Of a DNA stretch of 59,299 nucleotides, positions 6,599 to 58,237 are shown in pieces; position 1 is the first letter of the stretch; every line of letters begins with the position of its first letter. The notes under the pieces are model-generated. The model did no database searches. It saw only the letters and a program-made list of their open reading frames with translations, and was not told the DNA's origin. Made by a program: the position numbers and the translations under genes. The stretch lies in assembly GCA_016788565.1 (NCBI GenBank), contig JAEUSP010000134.1, positions 1 to 59,299 of the forward strand, read 5' to 3'. The DNA comes from Chlorobiota bacterium. Its GTDB lineage: Bacteria; Bacteroidota; Ignavibacteria; OLB7.

Positions 6599-9427
6599 AT
6601 GATGCTTGCTTCTTGCTACGCTGTTGCTGCTCGGTTCTGCTGGATACTCCTGTTGGTTGCTGTGGCCGTTGTGCTGCCGGAATTGGTTTCGGCACAAACT
6701 CCATCGCTGGACCCGTACACCGCTGGCCGCCACTACCTGCTTGCCTTCCCCGACACCGCGTCCACCATCACCGACCCGAAGCACCCCCCCCAGCAAAGCT
6801 CCAAATTTCTGATCTACGTGTACTCCGCCACCGATAGCACCACCATCACCGTTACCGACCCGGCCGGAACCACAAGCCGCACGGTTGGCGCGGGGAAGTT
6901 TGAGCAGTTTGCAATGGCCAACAGCCCGGTGATTACCGACATGGGGAAGCCGGTGGCAAACACGATTGAGGTGATGGCCAGCAATCCGGTGGTGGTCTAT
7001 TGCTACATGGTTACGCCGTTCGGGGCCGAGGCTTGGACCCCGGTTCCGGTGGAGTCGTGGGGGAACGATTATTATACAGCGGCCCGCCAAAGTGAGCTGC
7101 TGATTGACTACGCCCCGGGGGGCAACGACGCTCCTTCAGGAAGGCAGGTGCAAGGGGGGAACCAAATTTTGGTGATTGCAGCGCAGGATAGCACCCGCCT
7201 GAAAATCTTCCCGAACGGACAGCTTGCTGGGTTCATCAACACCTCCAACATTGTGCTGATGGCTGGCCAAGCCTACATGGTGCAAGGGTTGGCCGACACC
7301 GCCACCGGGGTTCGCGCCGATTTGGGCGGGTCGTTCGTCACCGCCAACAAACCGGTTGGCGTGCTGACCGGAAACACCCGCGCAATGAGCATTGACACAC
7401 TGGGTGGCGTTACCCGCAACTCGCTGAAAAATATGGCGGTGGAGTGGCTTGCCCCCGCCGAACAACATGGCGATGAATTTCTGTTTACCCCACCAACGGA
7501 TCCGGTGAAGCGCGCCGCCAGCTTGATCCGCATCTACGGAACCAGCGCCGATTTTAAGGACGGCTACTACAGCATTGACGATGCCGGAAACAGCCGCAGC
7601 TTCGGCGTGCTGAATCGGGGTTTTTTTGAGGACACCAACCGCACCGGAAAAGCCCGATTCTACAAGCCGCAAGCCCCGGTGCAAGCCATGCTAACGGTCC
7701 CGGGTTCCTCGCGGCTGATAAGCTCCTCCAAACTCTCCAACGGCAAAACCGCCTCCAACTACGAAACGTGGGGCGGATTCATGGCCGAGCTTACGCCGCG
7801 CAACCAGTGGGGAATCTTTGCCCCGTTTGTCACCCCTGCCGAGCCATCCGGGATGGAGCACTACCTGAACGTTGTGGCCGACGACGCACGCCGCAGCAAC
7901 ATCTTCTACAAAATTGGCGATGGCCCAGAGCAGCCCTTCCCGTTCCAAGCCACCGATGTTGCCGGAAGCGGCATTACGTGGGGGACGGTAAAAATTGAGG
8001 CGGGGAAAGAATGCTGGGTGCGGGGGGATGGGCCAACAGCACGGTTTGGCGGAATCGTCTATGGCTTCAAAAAAGGTGAGGAAGATTGGCGCCCCAACCA
8101 AGCAGTGCCGGAATATCAGGAAGAAGTTGCGCTGGCCTACGGCTATCCACTTTCTCCCCGCCGCCGTGTTGTGGGGCCTGGCGACTCACTCAGCATTGCC
8201 ACCACACCTTCCGGTTGTTGTGGGCTGCAAGTAAGCGTGCAAGCGGTGAACCAAAGCCCGGTTGGGTTGGAGTCGGTTGCGCTGGAAAACGGGGCCACCA
8301 ACACCACGCTGACGTTGGTGAACCCGACCACACAGGCGGAGTTGCTGCGAAGCACAACGGCCACCATCAGCTTGGGGCCAACCAACGGGGCATTGCCAGC
8401 GCAAGCCACTGTTTTATTCACCGACCGCACCGGCAAGGTCACTCGTGTCCCGTTCCGCTGCGCCCCCGATAGCCTTTCGCTCTCCCCTTCCAAAGGGATT
8501 GACTTCGGGCAAGTCCCCCCCGACACCCTCTGCATCGAAGCCGAGATCACGGCCATCAATCCGTTGCAGCAGAACCTTCCGGTGACGGACGTTCGGTTGC
8601 TTGCCGACACCGTAGGGTTCCGCATCGTTGCCGTGACACCGCCGGTGCCAACCGTGCTGAAGCCTGGGGAATTATTGAAAGTGAAAGTCTGCCTGCGGCC
8701 CGACCGCGACAGCACCAACTTCCGCGACAGCCTGCTGTTCCGCTACCCATGCGGCGTTGATACGCTTCCGCTTGCTGGGCTAAGTGCCACGCCGTGCATC
8801 GAAGTGGATACGCTGGATTTTGGGACGCTGCGGGAATCGGACGAGCCGGTTACGCTAACGCTGAAAATTTGCAACAAGGGGACCGGCCTGCTAACCTTCA
8901 ACGACGACGACGGAAGCGGGGTGATGAGCTGGTTGGTGGATAATTTCACCGTGGCAAAGGGGGATTTGGACCGCCTGAAAGCTGCGCGGCTGATCCCACG
9001 CGAGTGCATCACCATGGGGGTGACGTTTACGCCGAACGAGGTGGCCGACTACAACGCCTTTGTGCGGTTGCAATCGAACGCCGGGAATTGCAGCGACACA
9101 CTGATCTGGCTTGCGCAGGTGATCTCCGACACTGCAAGCGCGGCCCCCGACGACGCAGAGTTTGCTGGCTACTCACTCTTCCCAAACACCCCCAACCCAT
9201 TCAGCCAAGCAACGGAAATTCGCTTCAATCTTGGTCGAAGCGGAGTTGCGCGGTTGGAGGCTTTCGATATTTCCGGAAATCGTGTGGCGGTGATTGCCAA
9301 CCAGCAGTTATCGGCTGGGCAACATCGGCTGGCGTGGCACACCAACGGGGTGGCCGCCGGGCAGTACATCATCCGCATCACCAGCGGCCCCTGGCGGGCG
9401 GAGCAGCGGGTGACGGTGGTGAGGTGA
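6599..9427 (+). CDS. Large secreted protein: IgGFc-binding-like N-terminus, T9SS sorting domain
   Basis: About 942 residues from ATG 6599; an in-frame TTG at 6542 is a weaker alternative. A hydrophobic signal segment ends near SAQ. The first ~500 residues show the pattern of the IgGFc-binding protein N-terminal domain (repeated VMASNPVVVYCYMV-like and GGSFVTANKPVGVLTGN segments). A middle part resembles ASPM/SPD-2/Hydin beta-sandwiches (IDFGQVPPDTLC, DTLDFGTLRESDEP). The end is a T9SS type A sorting domain (YSLFPNTPNPFSQATEIRF, ending RVTVVR). It is probably exported by Sec and then T9SS and displayed on the surface, with a possible adhesive role. It is paralogous to the next gene. Its last ~100 bases are duplicated just downstream. 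Confidence 0.85.
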   Translation: MMLASCYAVAARFCWILLLVAVAVVLPELVSAQTPSLDPYTAGRHYLLAFPDTASTITDPKHPPQQSSKFLIYVYSATDSTTITVTDPAGTTSRTVGAGKFEQFAMANSPVITDMGKPVANTIEVMASNPVVVYCYMVTPFGAEAWTPVPVESWGNDYYTAARQSELLIDYAPGGNDAPSGRQVQGGNQILVIAAQDSTRLKIFPNGQLAGFINTSNIVLMAGQAYMVQGLADTATGVRADLGGSFVTANKPVGVLTGNTRAMSIDTLGGVTRNSLKNMAVEWLAPAEQHGDEFLFTPPTDPVKRAASLIRIYGTSADFKDGYYSIDDAGNSRSFGVLNRGFFEDTNRTGKARFYKPQAPVQAMLTVPGSSRLISSSKLSNGKTASNYETWGGFMAELTPRNQWGIFAPFVTPAEPSGMEHYLNVVADDARRSNIFYKIGDGPEQPFPFQATDVAGSGITWGTVKIEAGKECWVRGDGPTARFGGIVYGFKKGEEDWRPNQAVPEYQEEVALAYGYPLSPRRRVVGPGDSLSIATTPSGCCGLQVSVQAVNQSPVGLESVALENGATNTTLTLVNPTTQAELLRSTTATISLGPTNGALPAQATVLFTDRTGKVTRVPFRCAPDSLSLSPSKGIDFGQVPPDTLCIEAEITAINPLQQNLPVTDVRLLADTVGFRIVAVTPPVPTVLKPGELLKVKVCLRPDRDSTNFRDSLLFRYPCGVDTLPLAGLSATPCIEVDTLDFGTLRESDEPVTLTLKICNKGTGLLTFNDDDGSGVMSWLVDNFTVAKGDLDRLKAARLIPRECITMGVTFTPNEVADYNAFVRLQSNAGNCSDTLIWLAQVISDTASAAPDDAEFAGYSLFPNTPNPFSQATEIRFNLGRSGVARLEAFDISGNRVAVIANQQLSAGQHRLAWHTNGVAAGQYIIRITSGPWRAEQRVTVVR

Positions 9428-38989: not shown

Positions 38990-41104
38990 ATGTCTGATAT
39001 CCTTGCCGAACTCCGCTTCGCCACCGAAGCCGCCGCCACCGTTATCGAACGCGCCCACGCCCTAAACCGACTTGCCGAGGAGTTGGAAAAGCAGAGCCAG
39101 TACCCCGAAAGCCTTGCCGCCGCCGAGGAAGCCTACGGGCTTGCTCAACAAGCCAAAGAACCTACTGCCGAAGCAAGGGCGTTGCTCTTGCAAGCGGCTG
39201 TGCATTTACGCAAAGGGAGCCATGCTGAGGCGTTACCACTCTTTGAGCAATCGCTGAAGCTCTACGAAGAGCTTGGCGACCGTTCCGGTGTTGCCCGTGC
39301 TTCTGGGAACATTGGGCTGGTGTACAATCGTCTTGCGGAGTACGGTAAAGCATTGGAGTATCACACTCGTGCACGTGCCCTGCATGAAGAGCTTTATAAT
39401 CGCTCTGGCATTGCCGATAGTATGAACGACATCGGCATAGTGTACCATAGGCTTTCGGATTACAGCAAAGCATTGGAGCATTACACCCATGCCCTTGATC
39501 TGCATGAAGAGCTTGGTGATCGTGACGGTGTTGCCCGTGCTTCCGGGAACATCGGGAATGTGTACTATCGCCTTTCAGATTACAGCAAAGCATTGGAGCA
39601 TTACACCCGCGCCCTTGCTTTGCATGAAGAGCTTGGTGATCGCCCCGGTGTTGCCCGTGCTTTCGGGAGCATCGGGAATGTGTACAACCGCCTTTCGGAG
39701 TACGGAAAAGCGTTGGAGTATTACACCCATACGATTGCCCTGCACGAGGAGCTGGGAAACCGTGTTGGTGTTGCCAATGTTACCGGAGACATTGGACTGG
39801 TGTACAATCGCCTTTCGGAGTACGGAAAAGCGTTGGAGTATTTCACCCATGCGCTTGCCCTGCACGAGGAGCTGGGAATCCGTGCTGGTGTTGCCAATGT
39901 TACCGGGAACATTGGGATTGCGTACAACAACCTTTCGGAGTACGCAAAGGCGCTGGAGTATTACACACGCGCGATTGCCCTACATGAAGCGCTTTGCGAC
40001 CGTAACGGCGTTGCCAGTGTTACCGGGAACATCGGGAATGTTTATTACGGCCTTTCGGAGTACGGAAAGGCGTTGGAGTATTTCACCCGTGCACTTGCTC
40101 TGAACGAAGAGATTGGCAAACGTGACGGTGTTGCTCATCTTACCGGGAACATCGGTTCACTCTACGCTCAGAAAGACTTCACTGACTACAACCCGGCCAA
40201 AGCCGAAACACTCCTCCAGCAAGCAATTACCCTCAACCAAGAATTGGGAACGAAGAAAAACCTTTATGAAAATCACCAAGCCTTAACCAACCTCTACGCC
40301 CAAGAACTCCGCTGGGAAGAAGCTCTGCAGCAGTACAAAAAATACCACGAGGCCTACGGGGAAGTTCACACCGAAGAGACGTTGAAAAAGGCAGCGCAGG
40401 TAGAGCAGCAACGCCAAGTTGCCGAACTGGAGAAACGCATTGCCATTGAACGCGCCCGTGCAAAAGCCACCGAAAAACTTCTCCACAAAACCCTCCCGCC
40501 AAGCATCGCCAACCGGATTATTTCTGGCGAACAAAACATTGCCGACCGCTTCGATTCCGCCAGCGTCCTGTTCGCCGATGTCGTCGGCTTCACCCCAATG
40601 ACCGCGCAGATGCCCGCCAGCGCGGTGTTGGAGTTCATGAACTTCGTCTTCGCCCACTTTGATGCCATTGCCGCCAAGCATGGCTGCGAGCGAATCAAGA
40701 CAATCGGCGACGGCTACATGGCCGTGTGCGGCGCGCCAGTGGAGTGCCTGGATCACGCAGAACGGATAGCCCGAATGGCGATGGAGATGCTGGTGGAGGT
40801 GAAGCTGCCAGCAAGCATCACCGAGTATCTGCCAGCAGGAGTGGAGTTTGAGATACGGATCGGCTTGCACACCGGAATCATCACCGGCGGGGTGATTGGA
40901 GTTGGGAAGCTGGCCTACGACATCTACGGCGACACCGTAAACACCGCCAGCCGGATGGAGAGCCACGGCGAAGCGGGGAAGATTCACGTGAGCCAGGAGT
41001 TTACGAATGCGGTTGGTGAGGTTTTCAGTTTTACGGAGCGTGGAGAGTTGGAGGTGAAGGGGAAGGGAGTGCTGCGGACGTATTTTTTGGAGGTGGTGGA
41101 GTAG
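38990..41104 (+). CDS. TPR-repeat class III adenylate cyclase (module 1)
   Basis: 704 residues, no signal or membrane segment. Residues ~25-95 are helical, then seven 40-residue TPR units (96-375, each like GDRxGVAxxxGNIGxVYxRLSEYGKALEYxTxALALHEEL) and one degenerate unit. A charged coiled coil (~440-485) leads into the cyclase domain (~490-704). Catalytic residues look complete: metal Asp530 (FADVVGF) and Asp574, substrate Lys570 (KTIGDG), Asp644 (DIYGD), Asn651 and Arg655 (VNTASR). Lys570 with Asp644 favours ATP over GTP, hence cAMP. The TPRs probably bind a partner that controls the enzyme. The ATG at 38990 excludes a Cys-rich non-coding extension. The next large gene is a P-loop ATPase. 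Confidence 0.92.
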   Translation: MSDILAELRFATEAAATVIERAHALNRLAEELEKQSQYPESLAAAEEAYGLAQQAKEPTAEARALLLQAAVHLRKGSHAEALPLFEQSLKLYEELGDRSGVARASGNIGLVYNRLAEYGKALEYHTRARALHEELYNRSGIADSMNDIGIVYHRLSDYSKALEHYTHALDLHEELGDRDGVARASGNIGNVYYRLSDYSKALEHYTRALALHEELGDRPGVARAFGSIGNVYNRLSEYGKALEYYTHTIALHEELGNRVGVANVTGDIGLVYNRLSEYGKALEYFTHALALHEELGIRAGVANVTGNIGIAYNNLSEYAKALEYYTRAIALHEALCDRNGVASVTGNIGNVYYGLSEYGKALEYFTRALALNEEIGKRDGVAHLTGNIGSLYAQKDFTDYNPAKAETLLQQAITLNQELGTKKNLYENHQALTNLYAQELRWEEALQQYKKYHEAYGEVHTEETLKKAAQVEQQRQVAELEKRIAIERARAKATEKLLHKTLPPSIANRIISGEQNIADRFDSASVLFADVVGFTPMTAQMPASAVLEFMNFVFAHFDAIAAKHGCERIKTIGDGYMAVCGAPVECLDHAERIARMAMEMLVEVKLPASITEYLPAGVEFEIRIGLHTGIITGGVIGVGKLAYDIYGDTVNTASRMESHGEAGKIHVSQEFTNAVGEVFSFTERGELEVKGKGVLRTYFLEVVE
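39275..40114 (+). repeat. Seven tandem 120-bp repeats encoding TPR units
   Basis: The 120-bp period corresponds to residues 96-375 of the cyclase. Neighbouring units are similar also at the DNA level (for example CATTGGAGTA/CATTACACCC...GCATGAAGAGCTTGG), indicating recent expansion. Shadow reading frames on both strands result from this periodicity. Confidence 0.9.
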
Positions 41105-52104: not shown

Positions 52105-55100
52105 ATGTCACTTATTGACTTCATCAACCACGGCATCCTTCCGTTTACCGGAAGGGAGGGAATCACTGCACGAATCGCCGAAGCGGTTGGCCGCATCGCC
52201 GAAGCGCGCGGGCTGCACGCAATGCTGATGACCGGCGAGGCTGGCGCAGGCAAAACCAGGCTGATTGAAGAAGCGATCCGCCGCGCCGAAGAATCTGGTG
52301 TGGCGGTGATCCACGCCAAGCTCTATCCAGAATCGCCCACCGCAATCGCGCCAATGCTGAGCAACGCAATCTGGCGTTACACCATGGCCCACCCCACAAT
52401 CAACGTCAGTGCCGACGATACGCTCCCTTCGGTGGCTTCGGCATTGCGGCGGTTGGCGCGGCTGCGGCGGTTGCTGCTGGTGCTGGAAGATATCCACCTG
52501 ATTGCTGGCGAAGGGGTTGCCCAGCTTGCACTACTGCTGCAAGGGCTAAGCGATGAACAGATGGTTCTGCTGTGCGCTTCCCGCCCGGTGGAAATTCCCG
52601 TGCGCGGCGTGCTGGAACCTCACCTTGTTGATGAACTCCCCCTAGCGCCGCTGGATCGCGATAACATCCGGGAATTGTGGACGCAACTGTTCGACGATCC
52701 CCCCAGCGATGCGGTGATAGAGTTGGTGATGGCCACCACCGCCGGCAATCCGCTGGCAATCCGGTCGGGGTTGCGCGGGGCGTTGAATGCGGGCGCAATC
52801 GCCCGCGACGCACGCGCCGGGGTTTGGCGGATAAGCAACAGTGGCACAACGCTGAAAAGCGTTCTGGAGCGTGGTGTGGGGTCGCTTACCGAAGGGATGG
52901 CCGCGCACCTGCAACCGGAAGAACGGCGCGCCGCCAGCAGCATTGCCGCCCTGGGGGAAGTGGCCGCGCGGGAATCGGCAGCGGCCATGATTGGTGGCGA
53001 CCCGCGAACCATTGATATCCTGATGTTCAAAGGAATCCTGACGCAGCTGGATTCCCTGATCCCTCACCTTTCCGGAAACGCTTCGGCCTCGCCGTTGCTG
53101 GCGTTTACTCACTCCTTGCTTCACCGCCGCCTGGCCGATGACCAACAGGCCGACATCGTGAAGTTGGTGGAAGTCATCGCCACCGGGCTTCCGCTTTTTT
53201 CGGCAACGCCGTTCCAAATCATCGCCGTAACCGAACAGCTTCCGCAGCTTCCCATTTCTGGCGTGCGCGATGCAATCCAGCGCGGGTTGGATATCGCCCT
53301 TGAGCTTGACAACACCGCCGACTGGCCGCTGGCAATGCAAGTCTGGGAGGGGGCGCAACGGATGTTCCAACATATCGGGCCGCAGATGGAACCGGACCAG
53401 CAGCAAACGCTACACGCGCTGATGCTGATCCGCCGTGGCAACCTTCTGCACCGCGACCACGACGCGCTCAGGTCGGTGTTGGATCAGCTTCTTGAACTGA
53501 CCGCAACCCCCGCTAGCGACCAGATGTGGTTCTACCGTTTCTCGGCGTTGGTGAACCAACATCTGCAGCAATATCACCGCACTGGCGTGCCCGACCTTGA
53601 AGCGCGAAAAGGGGTGGAAGCATTGGTGAAAGAACGCCCCCAACTTCAGTTCACACAATCCTACGTCGCCTATTTGTGGCAACGGCTCTACATCAGCTCG
53701 CTGGCGAACAATCACCCAGCACAGCGCGAGGTGGAGGCGATGATGAACGACCTGATAGAGTCCGACCAGGCCAGCGATGAGTTCCGCGCAATGCTCCGCA
53801 ACGCACTCTACCCAATCCTGATTGACCTGTTTGAAACCGAAGCAGAGTTGAACACCCGATTGAGGATGTTGCAAGAACTGGAGCAGATGCCGCGCAGCAC
53901 CAACTACCCCGATATCCTCCACTGCAAACTTGTGATGTTGTTCACCATCGGCAGGATGGACGATGTGGCCACCACCGCCCAGGAAACGATTCACGTTGCG
54001 CGCGAACGGGGGTTGCTGCAGAACCTCTACTTCGCGCAGCGGTGCCACATTGCGGCCCAGGGGATGCTGCACTTGCCAATGGAACGCCTTGCTGCCGAAG
54101 CCAGCCAGGTTGCCAGCACCTTCGCCGAACCGCACACCGATCTGCAACGGAACCATTTTGCGTACCAGCTTTCGCTTGCGGCAACCGTGCGGGGTGAGTT
54201 CGATTGGGCCGAGCGGTTCGAGCAGGAATACATGAGCGATTGGAAGAAATTCACGCCGCTGCACCGCAGGGTTGTTCACGCTGTTCGGCAGGGCGATGGG
54301 TTGCCGGAATTACTGCAAGAAGAGATACCCGAAACTCCGCAGAACAGCCTGCTGCATCGGCTTATCACCCTGGTTGTTTCGGAGAACACCGCCCAGGCCG
54401 CCACACTGGCCGAAGAAATCCGGACGTATCTTTCCGAGCCAATCCTGACCCTGCCCAGCCTTGTCACCAACCGCGCACTGATAACGCTGATTCTTCACGC
54501 ACAGAAGCTCGTCCCCCTTCGCCCTCTTACCGACGGGCTTGCCCAAGATTTGCCGAACGCCGTTGCTGCCGACCTAACCTGGTGCCAGCAACACAACTTG
54601 CCGTTGGCAATGGCCGGCGCACTGAAGCAGTTTGAAGAAGTGATGCCGAAGCGGGACGCCGCACGCTGGCGCGCTACTCTGCAGGGGATGATGCGCGACG
54701 CGGCTCATCACCAGCAAGAAGCGGAGCCGCAGCAGCTGGCATTGAAGATGATTGGGACGATTGAGGTTTGCCCCCCGAACAGCGAAGCCGTGAAGCCGCG
54801 TGGCGAACGGCTGCGGGTGTTTTTGGGATTGCTGACGCTGGATGCGATGGTGGAAAAACGGCTAACGCAACGCGAACTCTACCGCCTTGCCGTGCCAGAC
54901 ATGAGCGACCCCGACGACATCCGTAAATCGGTGAACCTGACGGTGTATCGGCTGCGGGAGATGATGGGGCATCAGGCAATCCTTACCGACGGCGACACAC
55001 CACGGCTGAACCGTGCGGCCATCCACGTGGATATTCTGGATGCCTACGACCACCTGCAAACGGCAACCCGTGGGCTATCGGAAGGCGGGTTTGTGCGGGC

Positions 55101-55407
55101 GCAGGAAGCATTGCTGAAAGGGATTGCCATCACCGGCAGCGAGGTGATTTTCCCGACGTTGTTCGAGGAGTTTTTCCAGGCCGCGCGCCAGGACTACGAG
55201 AACCGCGTTCGCTCCCTTACGCTTCGCACTGCGCGCAGCCTGATTCGCGAAGGTGACAGCATCCGCGCCGAAGAACTTCTGGCCCAGGCCGTTGCCGCCA
55301 TGCCAGCCGATGCCGAGCTTCGCGAGCTTCTGCACGAAACACTACGCAAACTTGGCCGCAGCGTGGAAGCCGAGCGGGTGAAGATGGATGCAAAAAATCA
55401 ACCCTAA
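52105..55407 (+). CDS. P-loop ATPase with C-terminal SARP-like and BTAD domains (module 2)
   Basis: 1,100 residues, paralogous to the gene at 41784 from the start (FINHGILPFTGRE against FLNHGVMPFVGRT). Walker A is GEAGAGKT (44-51) and Walker B LLLVLEDIH (123-131). A long helical middle follows. From ~879 there is a winged-helix-like segment (ALKMIGTIEVCPP, GERLRVFLGLLTLDAM, NLTVYRLREMMG) and a BTAD-like end (RQDYENRVRSLTLRTARSLI, AEELLAQAVAAMPADAEL). The two copies are clearly diverged, so the duplication is old. The ATG at 52105 is well supported by the paralogue. It is followed by a perfect palindrome and then by the TPR-SLOG-cyclase gene. A nucleotide-dependent regulator is inferred. Confidence 0.82.
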   Translation: MSLIDFINHGILPFTGREGITARIAEAVGRIAEARGLHAMLMTGEAGAGKTRLIEEAIRRAEESGVAVIHAKLYPESPTAIAPMLSNAIWRYTMAHPTINVSADDTLPSVASALRRLARLRRLLLVLEDIHLIAGEGVAQLALLLQGLSDEQMVLLCASRPVEIPVRGVLEPHLVDELPLAPLDRDNIRELWTQLFDDPPSDAVIELVMATTAGNPLAIRSGLRGALNAGAIARDARAGVWRISNSGTTLKSVLERGVGSLTEGMAAHLQPEERRAASSIAALGEVAARESAAAMIGGDPRTIDILMFKGILTQLDSLIPHLSGNASASPLLAFTHSLLHRRLADDQQADIVKLVEVIATGLPLFSATPFQIIAVTEQLPQLPISGVRDAIQRGLDIALELDNTADWPLAMQVWEGAQRMFQHIGPQMEPDQQQTLHALMLIRRGNLLHRDHDALRSVLDQLLELTATPASDQMWFYRFSALVNQHLQQYHRTGVPDLEARKGVEALVKERPQLQFTQSYVAYLWQRLYISSLANNHPAQREVEAMMNDLIESDQASDEFRAMLRNALYPILIDLFETEAELNTRLRMLQELEQMPRSTNYPDILHCKLVMLFTIGRMDDVATTAQETIHVARERGLLQNLYFAQRCHIAAQGMLHLPMERLAAEASQVASTFAEPHTDLQRNHFAYQLSLAATVRGEFDWAERFEQEYMSDWKKFTPLHRRVVHAVRQGDGLPELLQEEIPETPQNSLLHRLITLVVSENTAQAATLAEEIRTYLSEPILTLPSLVTNRALITLILHAQKLVPLRPLTDGLAQDLPNAVAADLTWCQQHNLPLAMAGALKQFEEVMPKRDAARWRATLQGMMRDAAHHQQEAEPQQLALKMIGTIEVCPPNSEAVKPRGERLRVFLGLLTLDAMVEKRLTQRELYRLAVPDMSDPDDIRKSVNLTVYRLREMMGHQAILTDGDTPRLNRAAIHVDILDAYDHLQTATRGLSEGGFVRAQEALLKGIAITGSEVIFPTLFEEFFQAARQDYENRVRSLTLRTARSLIREGDSIRAEELLAQAVAAMPADAELRELLHETLRKLGRSVEAERVKMDAKNQP

Positions 55408-55987: not shown

Positions 55988-58237
55988 ATGGCAGCAACCA
56001 ACCAACATATCACCAGCAGCGACCTGCTGAACCAGCAGTGGCTTGAGCGTATCATCCAGCTTGCCGAGCAATTAGTTCGGTCGGCACCCCACTTGTGGGT
56101 GGCGGAATCGGCCCTTGCTTCGCTCCTTCCTGAAACCGAGCACTCAGCACCTGACCTGTACGACGCGCTTGATGAAGCTGAACGCGCACGCGCCGTTGCC
56201 CGTGCGGTTGAGGCGTTGCGTGCGGTGGTTGCGTTGGGCCATGAGCTGGAGCCGCAGGCAAGCCATCGCGAAGAAGAGCCGGAGGCCGAAGAGCCAAACA
56301 TTGTGTTGGAGCAGTTGGCGCAATCGTCCGCCGGAAATTTGGGGTCGCTGCTGGCGTTGTGGCGCGCCCGGAAAACTGAGCAATGGGCGCGCTATCCAAA
56401 CATCTACCGCATTCTTGGCAAACGAATTTTGGACCTGGGGGAGCCGATCCTTGCCTACGATGTTCTGAACGAAGGCTTGGAGTATTGGCCCGCCGATGTG
56501 CGGATGCGGCAGCTGAACGCCCTTGCCCTTTCGCGAAGCGGCGCCACCGACAAAGCCAACGTGATTCTGTTCCAACTCTACCAAGAAGGCCACACCGACG
56601 AGGAGACGTTGGGGATGCTTGCCCGAACCCACAAAGACCTGTGGCAGCAATCGAACAATCCCGAAGAACAACAACGGCAGTTGCAGCAATCGTTTGGATA
56701 CTACTTCCAAGCCTACCAACTCAATCGTGGATACTACACCGGCATCAACGCCGCAACCGTGGCACTGCTGGCGAACAACACCCCCCACGCCCACACGATA
56801 GCCGAAGAAGTTCACCAGATGTGCATGCAGGAGTACCACAGCTCACCCGATGCCGCCACCAACTACTGGCTAACCGCCACCCTTGCCGAAGCCGCCCTGA
56901 TTCACGGGGACATTGAGGAAGCGGGGCAATGGTACAGCCGCGCTGCCCAGCTTGGCAGCGGGAAATACGGGAACCTGAACAGCACACGGCGCAATGCCTG
57001 GCTGATTCTGGACCACTTGCAGCTGGACCGCCGCACGATTGATCAGTACTTCCAATTCCCCACCGTGGTGGTGTTTGCCGGCCACATGATTGACCGCCCC
57101 GACCGCCCAATCCCACGGTTCCCGCCCCAGTTAGAAGGTGCGGTGAAACAGGCAATTCGCGAACGGCTGATTGCTTTGAACTGTGGCATTGGCTACTCAT
57201 CGCTGGCGTGCGGCGCGGATATTCTGTTCCAGGAAGCAGTGCTTGAGCTTGGCGGCGAATCGCACGTGGTGCTTCCCTACAACCGGAAAAATTTTATTGA
57301 AGACAGCGTTGGCTACCCCCCCGACGGGAATTGGGAAGAACGATTCGACCGCATCTGCCACGAAGCGACCGAAGTGCAAACCGCATCGCTGCAGAAAATG
57401 ATGGGGGGAAGCATGTCGTTCGAGTACACCAACCTTCTGCTGCATGGGCTGGCCAGCATCCGCTCCGAACAACTACAAACACGCCTGGCACCGTTGGCAG
57501 TGTGGGATGGAGGGCGCGGCGATGGCGTTGGCGGAACCGCCAGCAGTATCGAGCATTGGTGGTTCTGTGGGCGGCACGTGGAGCTGATTCACCTGCGTGC
57601 AATGCTGGAGCAGGTGATGGAAACACACGTGATGGCCAGCTTGCCCGATGAACCACCGGCAACGCCAGCCGACGATGAAGAAGACGATGGGCTGCGGGCC
57701 GAGATGATCGGGATGCTGTTTGCCGATGCCGTCAGCTTCAGCAAACTGACCGAGGAGGAGTTGCCGTTGTTCATCCGCACTTTTTTGGGTGAGATTGGCG
57801 ACCTGGTCAATAACTCCAACCACAAACCGATCATGCGGAACACTTGGGGCGACGGACTCTATCTTGTCTTCCCCGATGTCCGCAGCACTGGGCTGTTTGC
57901 GTTGCAGCTGTACGAACGAATCTGCACGGTTGATTGGTCCACCCGTGACCTTCCCGCAACACTCAACTTGCGGATTGCCCTGCACGCCGGCCCCGTCTAT
58001 TCCTGCATTGACCCCGTGACCGGAAACCCAAACTACATCGGCAGCCAAGTAAGCCACGCCGCACGGATTGAACCTGTCACCCCACCGGGCCAGGTGTATG
58101 CCAGCCAAGCGTTTGCCGCGTTGGCCGCCGCCCAGCGCGTCACCGAATTCACCTGCGACTACGTTGGCCAAACCCCGCTGGCAAAGGAGCACGGAACCTT
58201 CCCGACGTATCTGGTGCGGCGGAACGTTTCGGGGTAA
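55988..58237 (+). CDS. TPR/TRAFs-like, SLOG-like and divergent class III cyclase fusion (module 2)
   Basis: 749 residues, cytoplasmic. An acidic linker lies at ~85-105. Helical TPR-like or TRAFs-binding (DUF4071-like) repeats span ~135-345. A Rossmann-type SLOG/LOG-like domain covers ~355-500 (VVVFAGHMIDRP at 360-371, SSLACGADILFQEA at 404-417, HVVLPYNRKNFIEDSV at 426-441). A class III cyclase-like domain occupies ~572-745. Metal Asp580 (FADAVSF) and Asp622 (WGDG) remain. The substrate Lys is Asn618, the usual DxxG Asp is Asn682, and the catalytic Asn is Ser689 (QVSHAARIEP), with Arg693 kept. It may therefore make another nucleotide, or only bind one. Related fusions appear in nucleotide-centred conflict systems (established for SLOG and TRAFs domains); a defence role is inference. 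The ATG at 55988 is clean. Confidence 0.8.
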   Translation: MAATNQHITSSDLLNQQWLERIIQLAEQLVRSAPHLWVAESALASLLPETEHSAPDLYDALDEAERARAVARAVEALRAVVALGHELEPQASHREEEPEAEEPNIVLEQLAQSSAGNLGSLLALWRARKTEQWARYPNIYRILGKRILDLGEPILAYDVLNEGLEYWPADVRMRQLNALALSRSGATDKANVILFQLYQEGHTDEETLGMLARTHKDLWQQSNNPEEQQRQLQQSFGYYFQAYQLNRGYYTGINAATVALLANNTPHAHTIAEEVHQMCMQEYHSSPDAATNYWLTATLAEAALIHGDIEEAGQWYSRAAQLGSGKYGNLNSTRRNAWLILDHLQLDRRTIDQYFQFPTVVVFAGHMIDRPDRPIPRFPPQLEGAVKQAIRERLIALNCGIGYSSLACGADILFQEAVLELGGESHVVLPYNRKNFIEDSVGYPPDGNWEERFDRICHEATEVQTASLQKMMGGSMSFEYTNLLLHGLASIRSEQLQTRLAPLAVWDGGRGDGVGGTASSIEHWWFCGRHVELIHLRAMLEQVMETHVMASLPDEPPATPADDEEDDGLRAEMIGMLFADAVSFSKLTEEELPLFIRTFLGEIGDLVNNSNHKPIMRNTWGDGLYLVFPDVRSTGLFALQLYERICTVDWSTRDLPATLNLRIALHAGPVYSCIDPVTGNPNYIGSQVSHAARIEPVTPPGQVYASQAFAALAAAQRVTEFTCDYVGQTPLAKEHGTFPTYLVRRNVSG

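Follow-up and report, generated by a model that had tools for sequence, protein, structure and literature searches.

Which signal would a bacterial protein receive, and which would it make, when a divergent cyclase is joined to TPR and putative nucleotide-sensing domains? The question is raised by an open reading frame (ORF) at 55988–58237 on the + strand of a 59,299-nucleotide stretch of Chlorobiota bacterium DNA (GenBank assembly GCA_016788565.1, contig JAEUSP010000134.1; the whole stretch is called the window below). The frame is open from the ATG at 55988 through to the stop at 58237, encodes 749 amino acids (aa), starts at the same Met as an 89%-identical protein of a sister species (L014) and occurs as a single copy in the window genome. 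We tentatively place its product in a family of soluble nucleotide cyclases of class III type, gated by a ligand, that would relay an ADP-ribose-type signal into a cyclic nucleotide, a reading to which we give somewhat less than an even chance.

The preliminary description, made from the sequence alone, had seen a divergent cyclase fused to TPR/TRAFs-like and SLOG-like domains, and this architecture was borne out by Pfam, where TPR-S, MAP3K_TRAF_bd and Guanylate_cyc all match above their curated cut-offs, and by a fold match to YpsA. It had missed a remnant of a RyR domain near the N terminus. NCBIfam and PADLOC profile searches of the 749-aa protein gave no match. Its features lie as follows:

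55988–58237, + strand: full coding sequence, 749 aa, vestigial RyR, TPR-S, SLOG and class III cyclase (ORF, Pfam, 89%-identical sister ortholog with the same start)
56045–56251, + strand: vestigial RyR domain, aa ~20–88 (Pfam RyR PF02026, E 0.13, below cut-off; alignment with orthologs)
56471–56761, + strand: TPR-S domain, aa 162–258 (PF20308, E 6.5e-21)
56498–57007, + strand: MAP3K TRAFs-binding-like TPR region, aa 171–340 (PF13281, E 8.8e-10; 5ulm, Z 23.0)
57056–57622, + strand: YpsA-like SLOG domain, aa 357–545 (fold match to 2nx2; viral DprA/YspA-type SLOG in the second model described below)
57080–57094, + strand: SLOG motif 1, GHMID, aa 365–369 (G and D invariant, His near-invariant in 16 homologs)
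57209–57220, + strand: SLOG motif 2, CGAD, aa 408–411 (G409 and D411 invariant in the alignment)
57698–58213, + strand: class III cyclase homology domain, aa 571–742 (PF00211, E 1.1e-6; family profile, E 3e-13; fold, Z 21.5)
57725–57727, + strand: D580, first metal-binding Asp (invariant in 22 family cyclases)
57839–57841, + strand: N618, at the purine-specifying Lys position (Asn in at least 90% of 22 rows, Lys in none)
57851–57853, + strand: D622, second metal-binding Asp, in the N-T-W-G-D motif (invariant in 22 family cyclases)
58031–58033, + strand: N682, at the purine-specifying Asp position (mostly N, S or T in the family)
58052–58054, + strand: S689, at the catalytic Asn position (S, N, A, T or V in the family)
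58064–58066, + strand: R693, transition-state Arg (invariant in 22 rows)

The C-terminal domain belongs to the class III cyclases by its cyclase homology domain fold, its two metal-binding Asp residues and its transition-state Arg. The Lys/Asp pair and catalytic Asn of canonical class III adenylate cyclases are absent, with N618, N682 and S689 in their places. These residue calls had been made beforehand and proved right, numbering included, both in the family alignment and against a control within the window: the cyclase at 40544–41092 aligns as canonical, with KTIGD, DIYG and VNTASR (KTIGD...YDIYGDTVNTASR), and the differences in the 749-aa protein are therefore not an alignment artefact. 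This control, with K, D and N intact, sits within a 762-aa open frame 15 kb upstream of the cyclase gene. Since the cyclase part of the first, full-length AlphaFold2 (AF2) model was poor (pLDDT 63.7), a second model of the SLOG and cyclase part alone (pLDDT 86.3, pTM 0.87) was used for this domain; it has a class III fold with the best match, at Z 21.5, to human soluble guanylate cyclase (8hbh), and a family cyclase profile recovers solved cyclases at E 3e-13.

The unusual residues are a property of the family. Both metal Asps, the transition-state Arg and a T-x-G-D core are invariant in the 22 family cyclases; W620, like N618, is kept in at least 90% of them, and the NT-W-GD motif is near-invariant in Cyanobacteria, Acidobacteriota, Chloroflexota and others. 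Local decay was rejected as the source of the substitutions, which are family-wide, and the invariance of the Asps and the Arg across phyla is not what a decaying domain would show. A Rhizobium plasmid protein (L066 4980–6050) has an NTWGD cyclase fused to NUDIX, and the adjoining gene is annotated as a NUDIX hydrolase. Ser or Thr at the purine-specifying Asp position occurs in active class III cyclases, and given the family-wide N, S or T at this site the Asp-to-Asn change alone is weak evidence for an odd product; as far as the sequences can tell, loss of the Lys is the stronger pointer to an altered base choice. Comparison with Pycsar cyclases had been proposed to place the protein in a clade, and this gave no placement: the profiles gave no match, and the base-site residues, compared by their offset from the metal Asps, fit none of the described clades. 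The positions known from AnPycC (F60/K104/F109, UTP) and EaPycC (F100/R142/Q144, CTP) (PMC11224242) correspond in the 749-aa protein to F578 (D-2), N618 (D-4), W620 (D-2) and Y625 (D+3), which match neither set. The product is possibly a non-standard cyclic nucleotide.

The same substitutions feed the alternative that survives best, namely that the domain is catalytically dead, still binds nucleoside triphosphate (NTP) and metal, and serves a nucleotide-sensing scaffold that acts by assembly through TPR-S and SLOG with no messenger made. The window protein and most relatives have neither the Lys nor the catalytic Asn, inactive cyclic nucleoside monophosphate (cNMP) cyclases have been reported in conflict systems (PMC7159879), and DRHyd-TPR-S-SLOG relatives exist without any cyclase. 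A dead domain would not, however, be expected to keep both metal Asps and the Arg invariant across phyla, and the catalytic Asn is retained in some members (L015, L034, L035 and L068). We regard a dead cyclase as unlikely, though it deserves to be kept in mind.

Upstream of the cyclase, the TPR part has the ASK1 central regulatory region as its closest solved structure (5ulm, fold comparison of the AF2 model), and the protein thus carries both the TPR-S profile and the ASK1 regulatory fold. Burroughs and Aravind (2020) reportedly predicted TPR-S to be a sensor of NAD-derived signals. For the SLOG domain, the preliminary description would have been refuted by the lack of a profile match at aa 355–500. 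Sequence profiles indeed gave none (no Pfam match to E 1 for aa 355–545, and against solved structures to E 10 no SLOG, chance matches only), but fold comparison overturned this outcome: aa 357–545 of the full-length model match Bacillus subtilis YpsA (2nx2) with Z 15.6 and a root-mean-square deviation of 3.4 over 160 aligned residues, and the second model matches viral DprA-like and YspA/cpYpsA-type SLOG proteins. By fold, then, the protein has the SLOG Rossmannoid of the YpsA clade. Alignment of 16 homologs shows the motifs F-x-GHMID...RFPP, CGxDxLFxEA and W..RF, and the domain looks like a divergent subfamily of the SLOG superfamily. Three DRHyd-TPR-S-SLOG proteins (L003, L037 and L038) have the same SLOG subfamily but lack the cyclase; their arrangement is ASK-like, with no kinase. 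Nucleotide sensing by the predicted SLOG domain is plausible, and the YpsA-like clade holds members that sense cyclic ADP-ribose (cADPR) (PMC9503650).

The RyR remnant has suffered a 7-residue loop deletion and is best understood from its orthologs. Proteins 44–50% identical in Okeania, Microcoleaceae, Chloroflexaceae and Pyrinomonadaceae/Acidobacteria carry an N-terminal RyR domain (PF02026, E 1e-31 to 1e-33). The phage protein RyDEP binds 2'/3'cADPR via H75, W78, H100 and D117 and cleaves both isomers; other tested homologs showed no cleavage, and 6/8 bound (PMC13232231). Equivalents of these four residues occur at identical spacing in every intact RyR copy: H/W/H/D at 0/+3/+25/+42 is shared by eight fused orthologs and the separate RyR protein of Priestia, and is also visible in stand-alone RyR ORFs of L061 and L062. 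At these positions the window protein has P, W, H and A (P, W, H/G and A when its sister is included), so that the above-cut-off match and the pocket that define RyR membership are seen in the orthologs and not in the window protein itself. Where RyR is not fused to the family cyclase it may be encoded next door, as in G463, G575 and Priestia.

Loss of RyR and loss of the SLOG motifs are complementary, apart from two genomes discussed below. Intact RyR goes with degenerate SLOG motifs in the Pyrinomonadaceae/Acidobacterial rows (L018–L020) and G575; RyR is gone and the SLOG motifs are intact in the window genus, G278, G323, G424, G503, G563 and others; both are intact in Okeania, Chloroflexaceae and G463. 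This pattern suggests that one nucleotide-binding input, RyR or SLOG, may be enough. A strict rule that RyR is lost when TIR is lost fails, as several TIR-linked members also lack RyR.

A SLOG-profile search of ~780 genomes in phylum draws (partly overlapping) and of the ortholog genomes yielded further TPR-S-SLOG-cyclase proteins, and also the DRHyd-TPR-S-SLOG proteins that have no cyclase. We looked for TIR_2 in 24 genomes that carry a family gene. Of the 19 with any TIR, 14 have one no more than 7 kb from the family gene, where uniform placement would give 0.25; counted by lineage the figure is 5/9 (P about 2e-7). As a control for clustering, class III cyclases outside the family were counted by hand among the matches listed for these genomes, and only two of 129 lie that near to a TIR gene (Fisher p 9e-14). 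The neighbouring TIR is the sole TIR_2 of the genome in G487, G503, G563 and G555. The partners vary and include TIR-WD40 in cyanobacteria, a ThsB-like TIR upstream in Pyrinomonadaceae, TIR with an nSTAND1-TPR gene, and TIR fused to a region that matches kinase-type defence models. On a Priestia plasmid (L068 2118–6741) a PycTM effector gene, two unannotated genes, a cyclase-TPR-S gene and RyR share one orientation, and a TIR gene is convergent to them; the cluster is a candidate Pycsar-like system. The link to nucleotide-centred conflict systems drawn in the preliminary description is strengthened by these neighbourhoods and by the RyR domain. In Okeania SIO3B5 (L023 5800–9345) an ORF at 6979–8121 interrupts the family gene and leaves it in two parts; this insert, which may be a mobile element, has a homolog in L022.

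These neighbourhoods bear on a further alternative, in which an ordinary cyclase whose base pocket has changed would make cAMP or cGMP under the control of TPR and SLOG and serve cell physiology instead of defence. The nearest solved relatives of the domain, by sequence and by fold, are ordinary adenylate and guanylate cyclases, and the window genome, with 15 PF00211 matches and four cNMP-binding proteins, has no TIR_2 match. The purine Lys is nevertheless absent in 22/22 family rows, and relatives are linked to TIR and RyR and are carried on plasmids, all of which makes this alternative improbable. It is more improbable still that RyR (and SLOG) are off-switches that hydrolyse or soak up TIR-made cADPR, the protein then restraining or counteracting the TIR encoded beside it. 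In favour, orthologs with a RyR domain keep the catalytic dyad of RyDEP (H75/D117), and RyDEP does cleave, while the other homologs tested did not; against it, the conserved cyclase is left unexplained, and RyR is lost in many TIR-linked members.

The ligand, gating, catalysis, product and defence role that we infer for the family of ligand-gated cyclases would fit together as follows. A signal of ADP-ribose type, such as a cADPR isomer from the neighbouring TIR enzyme (TIR is present in most carriers), would bind RyR and/or SLOG, and the ASK1-like TPR-S scaffold would transmit the ligand-induced change to the cyclase. The C-terminal cyclase domains would pair head to tail as a homodimer and form a cyclic nucleotide from NTP, binding alone being less likely; the cyclic nucleotide would set off a further, probably antiviral, response. 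The window member would be derived, having lost its RyR pocket and kept SLOG as the sole input beside the divergent cyclase. In its most specific form, a two-messenger immune relay, cellular RyR domains would be cADPR receptors, and a TIR-made cADPR isomer received by RyR and/or SLOG would give rise to a second, non-purine-standard cyclic mononucleotide. This form we hold to be doubtful as a whole. The more general reading as a ligand-gated cyclase draws on the invariant metal Asps and Arg, the confident cyclase fold and a SLOG of the type whose clade has cADPR sensors; on the RyDEP residues kept in intact RyR copies, the fusion or adjacency of RyR and the linkage to TIR genes of varied architecture; and on the complementary RyR/SLOG losses and the joint presence of PycTM, cyclase-TPR-S, RyR and TIR on the Priestia plasmid.

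Several observations weigh against the relay. No cNMP-binding domain was detected in the neighbouring TIR proteins scanned, and a dedicated cNMP effector was unseen at most loci. RyR is missing from G115 and G137, whose SLOG motifs are weakened, and both, as well as G124, lack TIR. Because the window genome (G000) has neither a TIR_2 match nor an intact RyR, the NAD-signal part of the model may not apply to the window member. Finally, with the catalytic Asn not conserved and the base-specifying pair replaced, cyclase activity may be low or absent.

Around the gene itself, a 1100-aa AAA_16 protein with a weak C-terminal BTAD match, possibly a STAND/SARP-like regulator, is encoded directly upstream (52105–55407); it was rejected as an operon partner, as it is not kept beside the cyclase gene in the sister genome. 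In the sister species the divergent neighbour of the cyclase gene encodes an HD-PycTM membrane protein (L014 4407–5798). Its 89% ortholog, the one HD-PycTM of the window genome, lies on another contig (C34), with a rearrangement breakpoint between it and the cyclase, and a class-wide survey found HD-PycTM without the cyclase in 14/61 genomes; for these reasons PycTM was not used as evidence for a partner in the window genus.

If the relay holds, RyR domains would have a host-side receptor role and one nucleotide messenger would be relayed into another, with a possible bearing on the old question of animal RyR channels sensing cADPR. Family members are compact and soluble, and they occur in cultured cyanobacteria as well as on plasmids, which makes the question directly testable.

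Among known systems, Thoeris pairs the TIR protein ThsB with the SLOG-sirtuin ThsA; TIR-derived cADPR signals activate the SLOG-bearing ThsA and are bound or cut by phage RyR proteins. The relatives share with it the nucleotide-signal logic and a TIR gene beside a SLOG-domain gene, seen in 14/19 TIR-bearing relatives and not in the window genome with its lack of a TIR_2 match, whereas a class III cyclase takes the place of the sirtuin NADase as output, and RyR and TPR-S are extra. Pycsar (PycC with PycTM or PycTIR) likewise has a cyclase of class III fold that lacks the purine Lys; the Priestia cluster includes a PycTM gene, and TIR genes lie near many family loci. Unlike Pycsar, the family cyclase is fused to receptor domains, its TIR neighbours have no detected cyclic-nucleotide-binding domain, and F578/N618/W620/Y625 fit none of the described clades. 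PADLOC Pycsar cyclase models gave no match to E 1 for the window protein or the Priestia relative, and Pycsar cyclase structures are absent among the PDB sequence matches listed to E 10 for the family profile, which does not in itself exclude likeness to them. The TPR-S scaffold resembles the ASK1 central regulatory region (Z 23) and bacterial TPR-S proteins, but the window protein has no kinase, its output is a cyclase and a SLOG is added. The orthologs' RyR has the same four ligand residues as phage RyDEP and the RyR Repeat12 domain proteins, yet it is host-encoded and fused or linked to a cyclase, and vestigial in the window protein. The individual modules are all known already; what the literature compared does not describe, within the limits of the tests made, is the fusion of RyR and SLOG with a cyclase, the non-purine signature conserved in that cyclase and the linkage to TIR as quantified above, and these features make the family a variant of known nucleotide-immunity systems.
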